In this document: positions 24,507 through 55,952 of the stretch, piece by piece
How positions within the stretch are numbered: the first letter of the stretch is position 1
How the letters are laid out: each line of letters opens with the position of its first letter
Assembly (NCBI RefSeq): GCF_001424645.1
Contig: NZ_LMQR01000001.1
Location: forward strand, 985,301 to 1,049,300
Source of the DNA: Frigoribacterium sp. Leaf415
Lineage (GTDB): Bacteria > Actinomycetota > Actinomycetes > Actinomycetales > Microbacteriaceae
Direction: 5' to 3'
Length of the DNA: 64,000 nucleotides
Notes under the pieces: generated by a model
Database searches by the model: none
Told to the model about the DNA's origin: nothing
The model's input: the letters and a program-made list of their open reading frames with translations, nothing else
Program-made: the position numbers and the translations under genes

Positions 24507-24894
24507 GCGAATGGGTCGACAAGACGGTCGCGTCGGCGGGTGCAGATCCGCCGCCGAGGAACGTCCGGGCTCCACAGAGCAGGGCGGTGGGTAACACCCA
24601 CCCGGGGCAACCCGCGAGAAAGTGCAACAGAGAGCAGACCGCCACGGGTCGCACCTTCGGGTGCGACACGGGGTAAGGGTGAAACGGCGGTGTAAGAGAC
24701 CACCAGCGGCTCGGGTGACCGGCCGGCTATGTAAACCTCGCCCGGAGCAAGGTCAAAGAGGGGACGTCGAGGCTGCTCGCCGAGTCCCCGGGTAGACCGC
24801 TGGAGAGCTGCGGCAACGTAGTTCCGAGAGAGATGGCCGTCCATGGTGCTTCGGCACCGGGACAGAACCCGGCGTACCAGTCGGCCCATTCGCC
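24507..24894 (+). ncRNA. rnpB: RNase P RNA, bacterial type A
   Basis: A catalytic RNA of about 388 bases that removes tRNA 5' leaders. The start GCGAATGGGTCGAC pairs with the end CGGCCCATTCGC (P1). The universal CR-I block GAGGAACGTCCGGGC is at 24556-24570 and the CR-V partner ACAGAACCCGGCGTAC near 24862-24877. The purine-rich GTAAGGGTGAAACGG and AGAGACCACCAGCG blocks of P10-P11 lie in between. Short protein-like frames across this region are spurious. A near-perfect palindromic terminator follows. Confidence 0.96.
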
Positions 24895-49772: not shown

Positions 49773-50012
49773 CGTCGCCCGTGTCGCCCGGCACCGGCCG
49801 GACGTGCAATAATGGGATACGGACCCGTTCATGTCCATCGATCGAGTTCACGAGTCGGCACAGTCGGCGCGCTTTCGATCGAGGACTTGACATGGGTCCT
49901 AGTACTGCCCGAATTCGGCCGACGCCCAGTGCCGGTCGACGTCCCCACCGGCGCACGTGAACGCGACGATCGCGTCCGGTCCGGAACGTACCGAGAACTG
50001 AAAGGTGTTCGC
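49773..50012 (+). promoter_or_regulatory. sigA upstream region
   Basis: A 240-base gap before sigA with AT-rich islands unusual for this sequence: CAATAATGGGATAC near 49807-49820, and TTGACA at 49887-49892, a perfect -35 hexamer without a good -10 at 17 bases. A GAAAGG ribosome site lies 10-15 bases before the ATG. More than one promoter is likely, but I cannot assign sigma factors. Confidence 0.45.
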
Positions 50013-51272
50013 ATGGCTACACGCAGCAAAGCGACCGCGGCCCCCGACGAGGCCGTGACCGACGACACGTCCGTCGAGCCCGAGACCACGGCTCCCGCCG
50101 CCAAGAAGGCTCCGGTCAAGCGGGCTCCCGCCAAGAAGGCGGCGACGAAGGCTCCGGCCAAGACCGCAGCCGCCAAGAAGGCCGCCGCGGCCGAATCCGC
50201 CGACGACGAGGTCGACGCCGAGGCCGCCGTCGACCCGGCTGCCTCCGACGACGCCGACGGCGAGGGCACGAAGCCCGTCCCCGAGATCCTCCCGACCGGT
50301 GCGCTCGTCATCTCGCAGGACGACGACGACGAGATGCCCGTCTACTCGACGACCATCACCGGCGCGACGGCCGACCCCGTCAAGGACTACCTGAAGCAGA
50401 TCGGCAAGGTCGCCCTGCTGAACGCGGCCGAAGAGGTCGAGCTCGCGATGCGCATCGAGGCGGGCCTCTTCGCGGACGACAAGCTCGCCAACAGCACCGG
50501 CCTGAGCCGCGAGCTCGAGCGCGAGCTGCGCTGGGTGTCCCGCGACGGTCAACGGGCCAAGAGCCACCTGCTCGGTGCCAACCTCCGACTCGTGGTCAGC
50601 CTCGCCAAGCGCTACACCGGCCGTGGCATGCAGTTCCTCGACCTGATCCAAGAGGGTAACCTGGGTCTGATCCGTGCCGTCGAGAAGTTCGACTACACCA
50701 AGGGCTTCAAGTTCTCCACGTACGCCACCTGGTGGATCCGCCAGGCCATCACGCGTGCCATGGCCGACCAGGCCCGCACGATCCGCATCCCGGTGCACAT
50801 GGTCGAGGTCATCAACAAGCTCGCCCGCGTCCAGCGCCAGATGCTGCAAGACCTGGGACGCGAGCCCACGCCCGAAGAGCTCTCCCGTGAACTGGACATG
50901 ACGCCCGAGAAGGTCGTCGAGGTCCAGAAGTACGGTCGCGAGCCCATCTCGCTCCACACGCCTCTGGGTGAAGACGGCGACAGCGAGTTCGGTGACCTCA
51001 TCGAGGACACCGAGGCCGTGGTGCCCGCCGACGCCGTCGGATTCACGATGCTGCAGAAGCAGCTCGAGTCGCTGCTCGACAGCCTGTCCGAGCGTGAAGC
51101 CGGCGTCATCCGCATGCGCTTCGGCCTGGGCGACGGCATGCCGAAGACCCTCGACCAGATCGGTGACACGTTCGGCGTGACGCGCGAGCGCATCCGCCAG
51201 ATCGAGTCCAAGACGATGGCGAAACTCCGCCACCCGTCGCGTTCGCAGTCGCTCCGCGACTACCTCGAGTAG
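50013..51272 (+). CDS. sigA: Primary RNA polymerase sigma factor
   Basis: A 419-residue sigma-70 group 1 factor. A Lys/Ala-rich N-terminal region with repeated KKAP-type units (about 25-65) and an acidic stretch replace region 1.1. Region 1.2 is [16 protein letters not shown], region 2 contains [35 protein letters not shown] and [18 protein letters not shown], region 3 REPTPEELS, and region 4 the helix-turn-helix [23 protein letters not shown] 50013 is supported by GAAAGG and by family N-termini; the frame is open 67 codons further upstream. The many TANNNT hexamers in the window are its expected targets. Confidence 0.96.
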
Positions 51273-51276
51273 GCCC

Positions 51277-52536
51277 GTGCGTTACCTGGTCCCCGTGCTG
51301 GCCGGCCGACTCGTCCGGGCGGTCGCCCGGTTGCGGGGCGGCGGGTCCGCGTACCCGGGGCAGACCGTCCTGAAGCTCGCGCCCGATTTCCTCACGCACG
51401 TCTCGTCGCAGTTCGAGCGCGGCGTCGTGTTCGTGCTCGGATCGAACGGCAAGTCGACGACGACGATGATGCTGACCGAGACGCTCCGGGCCCACGGGCT
51501 CAAGGTGTTCACGAACCCGACGGGTGCCAACCTGCCTCAGGGCATCGCGTCGGCCTTCCTCCGCGAGGTGACGCCGTTCGGTCGTGTCCGCGACGACATC
51601 GGCGTGATCGAGGTCGACGAGGCGTTCGCCGTCGAGCTGACGAAGTCCCTGCACCCCTCGACGGTGCTGATGCTCAACGTGCAGGTCGATCAGCTGTACC
51701 GGTTCTTCGAGACCGAGCGGGTCGGCACGATGATGACCGACACGGCTGCCGTGGCCACCGCCGCGGTCGTGACGAACCGCGACGACCAGCACCTGGGCCC
51801 GTACCAGGCCGTCGGTCGCCAGACGGTGACCCGTTTCGGTGCCTCACCCGAGGTCGTCTCCGCGTCACCCAACGGCCTCCAGAACGCCAACGACTTCAGC
51901 CGTGAGGCCGACACCTCGCTGACCGCCGAGACCGAGGTGACCGCTCTCACGGGCACGGGCGCCACCATCACCGTCTCCGGCGCCCCGATCGACGTCCGGC
52001 TGCCGGCGCGTGGTCTGCACTACGCCGTGGACGCCGCGGCGGCCCTCCAGACGGCTTCGATCGTCCTGGGGCACCCGGTCGACCCGACTGCCGTCCAGCG
52101 GGCCTTCGAGAGCATGAAGCCGGCCTACGGTCGCGGTGAGCGCATGTCCCTCGGCGCCGACGAGGCCGAGTTCATCATGTTCAAGAACGCGGCGAGCCTC
52201 CAGATGAACCTCGACGCACTCCCGCAGGGCGTCGAGCAGGTCATGTTGGCGATCGACGAGGGCACGCCCGACATCTCGTGGATCTACGACATCGACTTCT
52301 CGCGCCTCGACCACGTCGACGTCCTCGCGGGGGCGAAGGCATGGCAGTTGGCCTTGCGGCTCGAGCACGAGGGCATCCCCGTCCACGTGATCGAAGAGGA
52401 CATCTCGAAGGCCATCCGCCTGATGCGGGCACTCCCGTCCCCGAGCGACAACACGAAGCACTTCGTGACGAACTACGAGCAGATGATGCTGGCCCGCCGC
52501 ATCCTCGGCCACCCCGACCTGGAGAAGACCGCGTGA
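51277..52536 (+). CDS. murT: MurT-like Mur ligase, lacking the zinc ribbon
   Basis: A 419-residue Mur-ligase-family protein in the usual sigA-linked murT position. It has ATP-binding GSNGKSTTT (about 56-64), the PTGANLPQGIASAFL block, VVTNRDDQHLGPYQ, and the C-terminal DUF1727 domain (FIMFKNAASLQMNLDAL; ISWIYDIDFSRLD). MurT normally carries a four-Cys zinc ribbon within the ATPase domain; this protein contains no cysteine at all. MurT activates the alpha-carboxyl of D-Glu in lipid II with ATP so that GatD can deliver ammonia. That activation could remain, but the partner GatD here is inactive (next entry). GTG start, four bases after the sigA stop; coupled to the next gene by a GTGA overlap. 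Confidence 0.85.
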   Translation: MRYLVPVLAGRLVRAVARLRGGGSAYPGQTVLKLAPDFLTHVSSQFERGVVFVLGSNGKSTTTMMLTETLRAHGLKVFTNPTGANLPQGIASAFLREVTPFGRVRDDIGVIEVDEAFAVELTKSLHPSTVLMLNVQVDQLYRFFETERVGTMMTDTAAVATAAVVTNRDDQHLGPYQAVGRQTVTRFGASPEVVSASPNGLQNANDFSREADTSLTAETEVTALTGTGATITVSGAPIDVRLPARGLHYAVDAAAALQTASIVLGHPVDPTAVQRAFESMKPAYGRGERMSLGADEAEFIMFKNAASLQMNLDALPQGVEQVMLAIDEGTPDISWIYDIDFSRLDHVDVLAGAKAWQLALRLEHEGIPVHVIEEDISKAIRLMRALPSPSDNTKHFVTNYEQMMLARRILGHPDLEKTA

Positions 52537-53285
52537 GCGACGACGTCCTCCGAATCGTCCACCTCTATCCGGAAGAGCTCGGTGTGAGCGGTGATCGGGG
52601 CAACGTGACGACGCTCGCGGTGCGCGCGCGCCGAGCCGGGGTCGACAGCACCGTCCTCGAGTACCGGGTGGGTGACGACGTGCCGACCGTGGCCGACGTG
52701 GTCGTGGTGGGGCACGGTCCCTTGTCCGGGGTCCGAGCCGTCGCCGCCGACGCTCGTCGCCTCGCGCCGGCACTCGAGTCGTTCGCCGCCTCCGGCGTCC
52801 CGGTGGTGGCAGTAGGAGGCGGTCTCGAGCTCCTGAGCCGCGGAGTCGAGGGCGTCGACGGCGAGTCGGTCGAGGGAGTCGGTTTCTTCGACGCCGTGGT
52901 CCGCCGCGGGGCTCCTCGTCGGACGAACTACCTGCAGGTGACGACCGACTACCAGGGTGACGAGATCACCCTCTTCGGCTTCGAGGACCATGCCGCCCAC
53001 CTCGAACTCGGGACGGACGCCGAGCCGTTCGGTTCCGTGGTCCACGGCGGTGGGAACGGCGACGGCCGCGAGGGGGTGCGCCGGGGCGTGTCGTTCGGCA
53101 CCCAGCTCAAGGGACCGGTCCTCCCTCTCAACCCCGCCCTGACCGACCGGGTCCTGCGAGTCGCGCTGAGCCGTCGCATGATCTCGTACTCGGCGGGCGC
53201 CGGGCACGCCAAGCTCGACGAGTACGCCGCCGCGTCGCAGAAGGTGATCGCCGACAACCTCGAACGGTCGTTCAAGGCCATGTGA
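52533..53285 (+). CDS. GatD-like class I amidotransferase without catalytic residues
   Basis: A 250-residue protein aligning by motif along the whole of GatD: RIVHLYPEELGVSGDRGNV at the N-terminus, GFEDHAAHLELG in the middle, and GPVLPLNPALTDRVLR near the end. The catalytic nucleophile Cys (family VCAGYQLL / ICGGYQLL) is Gly95 in VVAVGGGLELL, the catalytic His (family GTYLHGP) is Lys193 in GTQLKGP, and the upstream GGGQD loop reads GHGPLSG. There is no cysteine in the protein. It cannot hydrolyse glutamine by the known mechanism. The frame is intact and GC-typical, so this is not a decaying gene. Likely roles: structural partner of the MurT-like ligase or a binding subunit for another amine donor. 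Confidence 0.82.
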   Translation: MSDDVLRIVHLYPEELGVSGDRGNVTTLAVRARRAGVDSTVLEYRVGDDVPTVADVVVVGHGPLSGVRAVAADARRLAPALESFAASGVPVVAVGGGLELLSRGVEGVDGESVEGVGFFDAVVRRGAPRRTNYLQVTTDYQGDEITLFGFEDHAAHLELGTDAEPFGSVVHGGGNGDGREGVRRGVSFGTQLKGPVLPLNPALTDRVLRVALSRRMISYSAGAGHAKLDEYAAASQKVIADNLERSFKAM

Positions 53286-53837: not shown

Positions 53838-55952
53838 ATGCCCCCCACCTCGTCCGCACCCGCCTCCGACTACTCGGCCCGGCACCTCTCGGTGCTCGAA
53901 GGCCTCGAGGCCGTGCGCAAGCGTCCCGGCATGTACATCGGGTCGACCGACTCGCGCGGTCTCATGCACTGCCTCTGGGAGATCATCGACAACTCGGTCG
54001 ACGAGGCGCTCGGGGGGCACGGCGACACGATCGACGTCGTGCTCCACTCGGACGACAGTGTCGAGGTCCGCGACAGTGGCCGCGGCGTGCCCGTCGACAT
54101 CGAACCCAAGACGGGCCTCAGCGGCGTCGAGGTCGTGTTCACGAAGCTGCACGCCGGTGGAAAGTTCGGCGGCGGCTCGTACACGTCGTCCGGTGGCCTC
54201 CATGGCGTCGGTGCCTCCGTCGTCAACGCCCTGTCCGAGCGGCTCGACGTCGAGGTCGACCGGGGCGGCAAGACGTACGCCATGTCGTTCCGCCGCGGCG
54301 AACCCGGCACGTTCGACGACGAGGGCGAGCCCACCCCCGATTCACCGTTCACCCCGTTCGTCTCGGGCAGCGTGCTCCGCGAGGTCGGCAAGACCAAGCG
54401 CGGTGTCACCGGCACCCGGGTGCGGTACTGGGCCGATCGGCAGATCTTCACCCGGGGGGCCTCGTTCCAGACCGACGAGCTCTCGGCCAGGGCCCGGCAG
54501 ACGGCCTTCCTCATCCCCGGGCTCACGCTCACCCTGCGCGACGAGCGTGCCGGCTCGCTCACCGACGGCGGCTTCCCCCTCGAGAGCACCTTCCGCTTCG
54601 ACGGGGGCATCAGCGAGTACGTCGAGTTCCTCGCGCCCGACACGGCGGTGACCGACACGTGGCGCCTGACCGGGTCGGGCACCTACACCGAGACGGTTCC
54701 CGTGCTCACGGACGGCGGTGCCATGATCGCGACCGAACTCGAGCGCCAGTGCGACGTCGACATCGCACTGCGCTGGGGCGGGGGATACGAGACCGTCTTC
54801 CGCAGCTACGTGAACATCATCGCCACGCCGAAGGGCGGATCGCACCAGACCGGCTTCGAGACCGGGCTGCTGAAGTTCGTCCGGCAGCAGGTCGAGGCCA
54901 ACGCCCGTCGCCTCAAGGTGGGCAACGACAAGATCGAGAAAGACGACGTCCTGGCCGGCCTGACGGCCGTGCTCACCGTGCGCCTCCCCGAGCCGCAGTT
55001 CGAGGGCCAGACCAAAGAGATCCTGGGCACGCCGGCCGTGCGGGCGATCGTGGCGAACGTCGTGGCCACCGAGCTGGGCTCGCTTTTCACGTCGACAAGG
55101 CGAGAGGACAAGGCCCAGACCGCCCTCGTGCTCGACAAGGTCGTCGCCGAGATGAAGACCCGAATCGCCGCCCGGGCGCACAAAGAGACCCAGCGTCGCA
55201 AGAACGCCCTCGAGAACTCGACCCTGCCGGCCAAGCTCGTCGACTGCCGGTCGAACGACGTGGCGAACAGCGAGCTGTTCATCGTCGAAGGCGACTCCGC
55301 GTTGGGCACGGCCAAGGTCGCCCGCAACAGCGAGTTCCAGGCGCTCCTGCCGATTCGCGGCAAGATCCTGAACGTCCAGAAGGCCTCGGTCAGCGACATG
55401 CTGTCCAACCTCGAGTGCGCCTCCATCATCCAGGTCCTGGGGGCCGGGTCCGGGCGGTCCTTCGATCTCGAGGCGGCCCGCTACGGCAAGGTGATCATCA
55501 TGAGCGACGCCGACGTGGACGGTGCCCACATCCGGACGCTGCTGCTCACGCTGTTCTTCCGGTACATGCGACCGATGATCGAGGCCGGGCGCGTCTTCGC
55601 GGCTGTTCCCCCGCTGCACCGGGTGGTCGTGATGCACCCCGGCAGCAAGCCCAACGAGACGATCTACACGTACTCCGAGAAAGAGCTGCACGGCGTCCTC
55701 GCGGGGCTCAAGCGCACCAACAAGAAGTTCCAGGACCCCATCCAGCGGTACAAGGGTCTCGGCGAGATGGATGCCGAACAACTCCGGACCACGACGATGG
55801 AACGTCAGAACCGCATGCTGAGGCGCGTCAAGGTCGACGACGCCGAGAACGCCGCGCGGGTCTTCGAGTTGTTGATGGGCAATGACGTCGCCCCTCGCAA
55901 GGAGTTCATCATCGACGGAGCCGGTCTCAGCCGCGACCGCATCGACGTCTGA
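53838..55952 (+). CDS. parE: Type IIA topoisomerase subunit B (ParE-like)
   Basis: A 704-residue ATPase/TOPRIM subunit. The GHKL domain begins HLSVLEGLEAVRKRPGMYIGST and has DNSVDEAL, DSGRGVPVD and GGLHGVGASVVNALS. The TOPRIM blocks are FIVEGDSALG (Glu) and IIMSDADVDGAHI (DxD), then RYKGLGEMDAEQL. It pairs with the ParC-like subunit encoded convergently downstream. In actinobacteria a second set beside sigA, separate from gyrBA at the origin, is the usual location of this topoisomerase IV-like pair. AGGAG precedes the ATG. Confidence 0.9.
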   Translation: MPPTSSAPASDYSARHLSVLEGLEAVRKRPGMYIGSTDSRGLMHCLWEIIDNSVDEALGGHGDTIDVVLHSDDSVEVRDSGRGVPVDIEPKTGLSGVEVVFTKLHAGGKFGGGSYTSSGGLHGVGASVVNALSERLDVEVDRGGKTYAMSFRRGEPGTFDDEGEPTPDSPFTPFVSGSVLREVGKTKRGVTGTRVRYWADRQIFTRGASFQTDELSARARQTAFLIPGLTLTLRDERAGSLTDGGFPLESTFRFDGGISEYVEFLAPDTAVTDTWRLTGSGTYTETVPVLTDGGAMIATELERQCDVDIALRWGGGYETVFRSYVNIIATPKGGSHQTGFETGLLKFVRQQVEANARRLKVGNDKIEKDDVLAGLTAVLTVRLPEPQFEGQTKEILGTPAVRAIVANVVATELGSLFTSTRREDKAQTALVLDKVVAEMKTRIAARAHKETQRRKNALENSTLPAKLVDCRSNDVANSELFIVEGDSALGTAKVARNSEFQALLPIRGKILNVQKASVSDMLSNLECASIIQVLGAGSGRSFDLEAARYGKVIIMSDADVDGAHIRTLLLTLFFRYMRPMIEAGRVFAAVPPLHRVVVMHPGSKPNETIYTYSEKELHGVLAGLKRTNKKFQDPIQRYKGLGEMDAEQLRTTTMERQNRMLRRVKVDDAENAARVFELLMGNDVAPRKEFIIDGAGLSRDRIDV

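Follow-up and report, generated by a model that had tools for sequence, protein, structure and literature searches.

The stretch of DNA analysed here (hereafter, the window) consists of 64,000 nucleotides from Frigoribacterium sp. Leaf415, a member of the actinobacterial family Microbacteriaceae (contig NZ_LMQR01000001.1, positions 985,301 to 1,049,300). Immediately downstream of the gene for the principal sigma factor, it encodes homologs of MurT and GatD, the two proteins that normally amidate the alpha-carboxyl of D-Glu in lipid II using glutamine. In this pair, the glutaminase has lost its catalytic residues. The genes of interest are the following.

49812..51272, plus strand: sigA/rpoD, principal sigma factor gene, the upstream border of the putative cassette, ending 4 bases before the MurT-like gene
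51277..52536, plus strand: MurT-like ligase gene, 419 amino acids, no Cys, identified by Pfam, alignment and an AlphaFold2 (AF2) model
52533..53285, plus strand: GatD-like partner gene, 250 amino acids, GTG start, glutaminase-dead by alignment, with an AF2 model
53838..55952, plus strand: parE/gyrB-type topoisomerase subunit gene, the downstream border of the putative cassette

The open reading frames of the MurT-like and GatD-like proteins overlap by 4 bases and neither protein contains a single Cys, which bears out the description of the pair in an earlier note as Cys-free and operon-like and excludes an intact Cys-His pair elsewhere in either protein. Both proteins score above the respective Pfam cut-offs (PF08353, MurT_C, 39.4 bits; PF07685, GATase_3, 58.2 bits), and the MurT-like protein additionally matches Mur_ligase_M slightly below the cut-off of 24 (22.7 bits). 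By sequence, the solved relatives are the MurT-GatD complexes of Staphylococcus aureus (6GS2/6H5E), Streptococcus pneumoniae (6FQB) and Streptococcus pyogenes (9SQ9), which the window pair resembles in gene order, in the combination of PF08353 with PF07685 and in fold, but from which it differs in its location behind sigA and in falling far short of the NCBIfam equivalog cut-offs for true MurT and GatD (108.7 of 800 and 79.5 of 400 bits, respectively). The AF2 models, each built as a single protein from 46-row alignments, reached predicted local distance difference test (pLDDT) values of 95.7 for the GatD-like protein, with GatD chains as the best PDB matches (template modelling scores 0.80-0.87), and 92.9 for the MurT-like protein, with MurT chains at the top. 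The next-best fold matches of the latter are MurC-MurF and the pseudomurein ligases pMurC/pMurE, which link an amino acid to the carboxyl of a peptide; compared to these, the MurT-like protein is distinguished by the C-terminal domain characteristic of MurT and by the GatD partner. A genome-wide search detected no second MurT_C match in the genome of this strain, and the two further GATase_3 matches (39.8 and 31.3 bits) do not adjoin a MurT_C gene.

Alignment to S. aureus GatD supports the assertion of the earlier note that the nucleophilic Cys and the catalytic His are replaced and the GGGQD loop is altered. Specifically, Gly95 takes the place of the nucleophile C94, Lys193 that of the catalytic H189, Ser19 that of the capping Y17 and His61 that of the oxyanion G60, so that the loop reads G60-H61-G62 followed by Pro and Leu instead of Q63 and D64, whereas R128 is retained as Arg129. 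In the S. aureus crystal structure, R128 is reported to bind free glutamine, and the C94A, H189A and R128A mutants are described as inactive glutaminases (PMC5871853); C94S and C94G are reported to stop amidation (PMC6113224, PMC3266927). The C94G mutant carries the same Cys to Gly replacement as the window protein: it is reported to be incapable of using glutamine while, together with MurT, retaining ammonia use at pH 8.5, with GatD still required, and at pH 7.5, ammonia was reportedly used by neither the wild-type nor the C94G pair (PMC3266927). The difference is that the mutant carries one engineered change, whereas the natural pairs have also lost the capping Tyr and the gate Arg and, in Frigoribacterium, the His as well.

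The MurT-like protein retains the P-loop K59, the acceptor-site N85, the Mg ligands E112/D114/E115, the hinge R286 and D332, the counterpart of S. aureus D349. In S. pneumoniae MurT, mutation of K59, N85, D112+E113, D136 or R140 is reported to kill or lower the activity (PMC6085368), and in S. aureus MurT, D349N is described as strongly lowering amidation and T60A, E108A and N267Y as dead (PMC6113224, PMC3266927). The gate Arg (R135 in S. pneumoniae), however, is V137 in the window, and Tyr249 and Asp252 occupy the positions of the adenine-contact N270 and N273, respectively, within a motif (residues 246-256, 52012-52044) that reads GLHYAVDAAAA as opposed to the usual GxxNxxNA. Thus, the catalytic core of MurT conforms to the view of the earlier note that the remaining family motifs are preserved, but the ammonia path and the two adenine-contact Asn do not.

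To examine the spread of this state, we used 120 Microbacteriaceae genomes, drawn evenly, with completeness of at least 90. A PF08353 search produced matches in 87 of these and was refined with a profile of divergent MurT (46 rows). Altogether, 136 MurT/GatD pairs were collected: the window pair, those from 15 named contigs, 90 from the loci of PF08353 matches and 30 from another search with 43 genome hits, among which ten loci were unread in the extraction and three came from other searches. Both Cys and His are present in 46 pairs, only the Cys is missing in 44, and both are missing in 46. In a MurT tree of 122 rows, obtained after the removal of 14 near-duplicates (a quick tree with long branches), 68 Cys-less pairs form a single clade with maximum support in the Shimodaira-Hasegawa-like approximate likelihood ratio test (SH-aLRT 100) and no intact Cys member inside; ten further Cys-less rows (L034-L043) fall outside this clade, on long branches. 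By genome, a glutaminase-dead pair of the clade is found in 78 of the 120, a homolog of CofE, an unrelated ligase discussed below, in 17, an intact pair in 14 (3 of these also with a dead pair), a His-class pair in 7, another divergent pair in 3 (2 of them with the CofE-like gene) and none of these in 6. The Cys is absent in all 77 GatD of the clade that were read; the stretch examined in the 78th genome (G035) yielded no GatD. Eight additional GatD from a class-wide sample are all Cys-less as well. In a search of 393 genomes of the class for the MurT-like protein, in which, as in that for the CofE-like protein, the best few candidates per genome were scored, scores of at least 574 bits were obtained in 13 Microbacteriaceae only, the next best, at 417 bits, coming from other families of the order.

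The clade-wide pattern of loss and retention is sharp. The nucleophilic Cys, the capping Tyr and the MurT gate Arg are each present in 0 of the 68 dead pairs and in all 46 intact pairs; the catalytic His is retained in 44 of the 68 Cys-less GatD, and the equivalent of R128, in 65. Ten MurT residues that represent the phosphate, Mg, acceptor and interface sites, including the triad Asp (K59, N85, E110, D112, E113, N132, D136, R140, R304 and D355 in S. pneumoniae numbering), are identical in 68/68 dead and 46/46 intact pairs, and a His adjoining the changed adenine-Asn positions is invariant in the dead pairs. Thus, the catalytic core of the MurT-like proteins remains under the ancestral constraint and the ammonia path does not, the base pocket has been consistently rebuilt, and the glutamine-binding Arg persists. 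The base-pocket change in nearly all dead pairs might reflect a possible switch of nucleotide. The ligase half as a whole cannot be called intact: besides the adenine-contact Asn, seven more positions are variable. The zinc-ribbon cysteines, the loss of which the earlier note took for a sign of conversion, are indeed absent from the window protein; this region, however, contains no Cys (34) or one Cys (4) in 38 of the 46 intact pairs, so that ribbon loss is rejected as a marker.

A strain-specific oddity can be dismissed, this being a family-wide clade. Among the named contigs, the closest relatives of the window GatD-like protein come from 13 Frigoribacterium loci (76-99% identity; two more loci are distant), all 13 in the same state as the window. 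In four comparisons within Frigoribacterium, the ratio of nonsynonymous to synonymous substitution rates (dN/dS, Nei-Gojobori counts) is 0.14-0.18 for the MurT-like and 0.16-0.24 for the GatD-like protein, as expected under the selection on both proteins that the earlier note surmised, with family-wide conservation pointing in the same direction; GatD exceeds MurT in 8 of 9 comparisons. Because all 13 Frigoribacterium loci are alike, dN/dS is low and the state is family-wide, the Cys-less pair appears to result from neither chance nor pseudogenisation. A dead pair is retained even in a genome of 0.93 Mb (G013).

Several other arrangements were encountered. A second Cys-less type located behind sigA (L034-L040, 7 genomes; also L212-L214) has His in the place of Cys and Asn or Met in the place of the MurT triad Asp, and retains the ribbon cysteines, gate Arg and adenine Asn; an ATP-grasp gene adjoins the pair in at least 4 of these 7 loci. 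Intact and dead pairs occur together in three genomes (L026/L109 in G050, L029/L114 in G113 and L022/L132 in G060), two of which share a genus code, so that contamination is probably not the explanation even though the assemblies are fragmented. One genome (G111) carries, along with the usual pair, a second divergent Cys-less pair (L130).

The end of sigA lies no more than 200 bases upstream of the MurT-like gene in 65 of the 68 dead-pair rows and 342 and 697 bases upstream in two others, L130 being the row without sigA; parE is in view in 61 rows, some loci being so short (about 3.3 kb in the PF08353 set) that the whole sigA-parE interval is not visible. In 21 genomes without MurT/GatD in which the sigA region was read, this place is occupied by a CofE-like gene in 14, none of the genes sought is present in 6, and the contig ends in 1. 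In a fifteenth CofE locus (L210 in G112), the CofE-like gene, a divergent MurT, a Cys-less GatD and an alanine racemase (Alr) gene stand in one row behind sigA; L210, where two otherwise exclusive ligase types are found side by side, and L041/L042 belong to the same genus code (g49). CofE, F420-0:gamma-glutamyl ligase (PF01996), belongs to a protein family other than that of MurT. True CofE adds Glu to F420 using GTP; its family links a glutamyl carboxyl to an amine. The one CofE-like representative that was scored matches PF01996 at 42.7 bits and does not reach the CofE equivalog TIGR01916 (30.7 of 180.65 bits); more distant CofE-like proteins (L240, L241 and L242; 180-234 bits with the family profile) were found in other actinobacterial families.

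The CofE-like gene is present in 17 of the 120 genomes, behind sigA in 15 of these, and never together with a dead-type member of the clade (p = 1.3e-9 in a Fisher test without correction for kinship). Among the Microbacteriaceae of the class sample, the dead pair was detected in 13 and the CofE-like gene in 9, in no case in the same genome. The two states coexist within genus codes g7, g9, g53, g73 and g78, and a tree of ParE (85 loci; a single gene, quick tree with long branches) requires at least 8 changes between the MurT state and the CofE state. Outside the family, MurT, GatD, CofE, ATP-grasp and Alr were all missing behind sigA in 18 of 18 genomes from 17 other families of the order (about 7 kb each, parE in view in 13). 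The 15 CofE loci include an ATP-grasp gene (PF14397) in 12 cases, an alanine-racemase-like gene in 9 and a diaminobutyrate aminotransferase in 2. In the latter two loci (L191 and L193), a diaminobutyrate--2-oxoglutarate aminotransferase-like gene and the CofE-like gene lie inside the sigA-parE interval, and the L193 protein scores above the EctB equivalog cut-off. A simple division of labor, with CofE in B1 walls and the MurT-like ligase in B2 walls, is unsupported: the CofE-like gene is present in both M. aurum and M. barkeri, which we take to be Lys and Orn wall types, respectively.

Alanine-racemase-like genes go along with one subclade of the dead pairs. In this subclade, to which the window belongs (marked by an EGTP-like motif preceding the Asp of MurT), at least two Alr-type genes were counted in 37 of 40 genomes, and an Alr-type gene is visible in the interval at 22 of 40 loci, a number limited by the shortness of some loci. 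In the second subclade (mostly with SDVR), exactly one Alr is present in 20 of 24 genomes, and none is found in the interval. At least two Alr-type genes are present in 13 of 17 CofE genomes, 1 of 11 genomes with only the intact pair and 1 of 7 His-class genomes. These counts fit a D-diamino acid donor in the subclade of the window. Elsewhere in the Leaf415 genome, two alanine-racemase-like genes lie in tandem (L243:4409-6621, minus strand), one of which may encode a D-Lys racemase.

With regard to cell wall chemistry, group B walls are stated for Microbacteriaceae (PMC10978784), and the odd chemistry shared by the family is placed on the D-Glu alpha-carboxyl (PMC10978784, PMC4156110). For Frigoribacterium, D-Lys and type B2beta are reported (PMC7033078), and for Clavibacter michiganensis, a B2gamma wall in which D-diaminobutyrate (D-DAB) joins D-Glu to D-Ala (PMC9603630). 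The GatD of a named Clavibacter (P0024) has neither Cys nor His, and the same is true of the two sampled genomes nearest to it (G031 and G099, 84% GatD identity), which have no other MurT. The association of carriers with B-type walls, accordingly, holds for a few named genera (Clavibacter and Frigoribacterium) together with the statement for the family.

Taken together, these observations suggest, with a probability of about 0.5, that the window pair is a descendant of MurT-GatD that attaches the amino acid of the bridge to the alpha-carboxyl of D-Glu, the GatD-like protein being a non-hydrolysing partner. Under this scenario, a lipid II isoglutaminyl synthase would have stopped drawing ammonia from glutamine. 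The MurT-like protein would, most likely, convert the alpha-carboxyl of D-Glu in the lipid-linked stem peptide into an acyl-phosphate at the expense of ATP or, because the base pocket has changed, possibly of a different nucleotide, with GTP being a guess. In place of ammonia, the cross-bridge amino acid (in Frigoribacterium, probably the D-Lys reported for the genus) would provide the attacking amino group, and the product would be the 2->4 bridge of B-type walls. The GatD-like protein would be a structural partner that may hold the incoming amino acid via Arg129 in the former glutamine site. A larger amine seems to be the simplest reading because the natural pairs have lost the ammonia gate and cap along with the nucleophile, and an amino acid is favored over ammonia by the exchange with a CofE-like ligase and by the linked racemase and DAB-aminotransferase genes. 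This is the best reading that we found for the suggestion of the earlier note that the ligase was kept and the glutaminase lost, with a non-catalytic GatD and a link to B-type walls: the clade, the retained catalytic and glutamine-binding residues and the exclusion by CofE at one locus support it, and Leucobacter does not. More tentatively, the entire sigA-parE interval can be viewed as an exchangeable B-type bridge cassette in which the MurT-like/GatD-like pair interchanges with the CofE-like ligase plus ATP-grasp, the racemase and DAB-aminotransferase would supply the D-diamino acid, the GatD-like protein would hold the amino acid, and the Asn to Asp change may shift the MurT-like ligase from ATP to GTP.

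A number of observations weigh against the assignment of the pair to B-type bridge synthesis. For Leucobacter celer, cross-link type B with DAB is reported (PMC4804768), and its GatD (P0256) has intact Cys and His; two sampled genomes of the genus (G012 and G088) have nothing in the sigA-parE interval, and six of the 120 genomes lack any module (L181, L186, L187, L194, L195 and L197 in G017, G110, G047, G108, G045 and G057, respectively), so that some B-type members have neither the pair nor a recognisable substitute. Thus, the test suggested by the earlier note, whether the loss of Cys, His and ribbon tracks B-type walls, comes out partly negative: loss of the ribbon shows no link to that of the Cys, the His is often kept, and L. 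celer combines type B with an intact GatD. In addition, 11 of the 120 genomes have only an intact pair, two carry a different Cys-less MurT/GatD pair alongside the CofE-like gene, and the subclade with a single Alr in 20 of 24 genomes is at odds with a donor that would be produced by an additional racemase of the Alr type. Within the ligase itself, N270 is replaced by Tyr in 60 and N273 by Asp in 65 of the 68 dead pairs, and plain ATP use is doubtful because N267Y, which affects one of the two adenine Asn in S. aureus, is reported to kill the activity (PMC6113224). Seven further positions with a role proposed in S. pneumoniae (PMC6085368) also vary, being kept in the following numbers of the 68 dead pairs: D139 in 23, E143 in 42, K321 in 45, N322 in 66, P323 in 45, W360 in 26 (Tyr in 40) and D361 in 34. 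Finally, C. michiganensis muropeptides are reported with "amidation or hydroxylation" of D-Glu (PMC9603630). Among the genomes without a module, L194 carries an apparent ABC amino-acid transporter in the interval (proteins assessed by eye), and the same clusters are found in L195.

The muropeptide report bears directly on an alternative in which the pair still makes D-isoglutamine, from free ammonia, with the GatD-like protein having only a structural role and the bridge being made by something else. The Cys- and His-less GatD of Clavibacter and of its two nearest sampled genomes, the intact MurT catalytic core and the ammonia-dependent amidation by the S. aureus C94G pair at pH 8.5 (PMC3266927) all agree with this view, but the loss of the capping Tyr and the gate Arg of the ammonia path in 68/68 pairs, the lack of ammonia use at pH 7.5 reported for that pair and for the wild type, and the genes of the interval that point to amino acids render it unlikely. 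Quite unlikely, in our assessment, is the possibility that the sigA-parE cassettes build a different amino-acid-decorated product, such as a glycopolymer or capsule amide, or modify another carboxyl. The ATP-grasp that accompanies CofE belongs to a "sugar-transfer associated" Pfam family, Leucobacter, for which type B is reported, has an interval devoid of modules, and the base pocket is changed; conversely, N85, D112 and E113 in the acceptor site of MurT do not vary, the unusual wall chemistry shared by the family is reported for exactly that carboxyl (PMC10978784, PMC4156110), and the pair is retained in the 0.93-Mb genome. That the two proteins are a decaying or purely regulatory remnant, as the lost glutaminase catalysis, the altered base pocket and the excess of GatD over MurT dN/dS might indicate, is highly improbable in view of the low dN/dS in Frigoribacterium, the ten core residues invariant in all 68 pairs and the position behind sigA kept in 65.

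Elsewhere in the window, the sole Rfam match at the gathering cut-off is an ordinary bacterial class A RNase P RNA (24512-24892, plus strand, 275 bits).

The use of group B cross-linking as a marker in taxonomy goes back to Schleifer and Kandler 1972 (cited in PMC4156110). Among the open-licence matches listed, no paper names a ligase for the B-type bridge and none links MurT/GatD to B-type walls or to Microbacteriaceae. Besides concrete candidate genes for the B-type bridge ligase, the present analysis provides a naturally occurring series of glutaminase-dead variants of an enzyme that is a drug target and what is likely the displacement, within a cell wall pathway, of one enzyme class by another. 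If bridge formation by the MurT-like/GatD-like pair is true, the missing step would have been found for a wall type that has been known for half a century.

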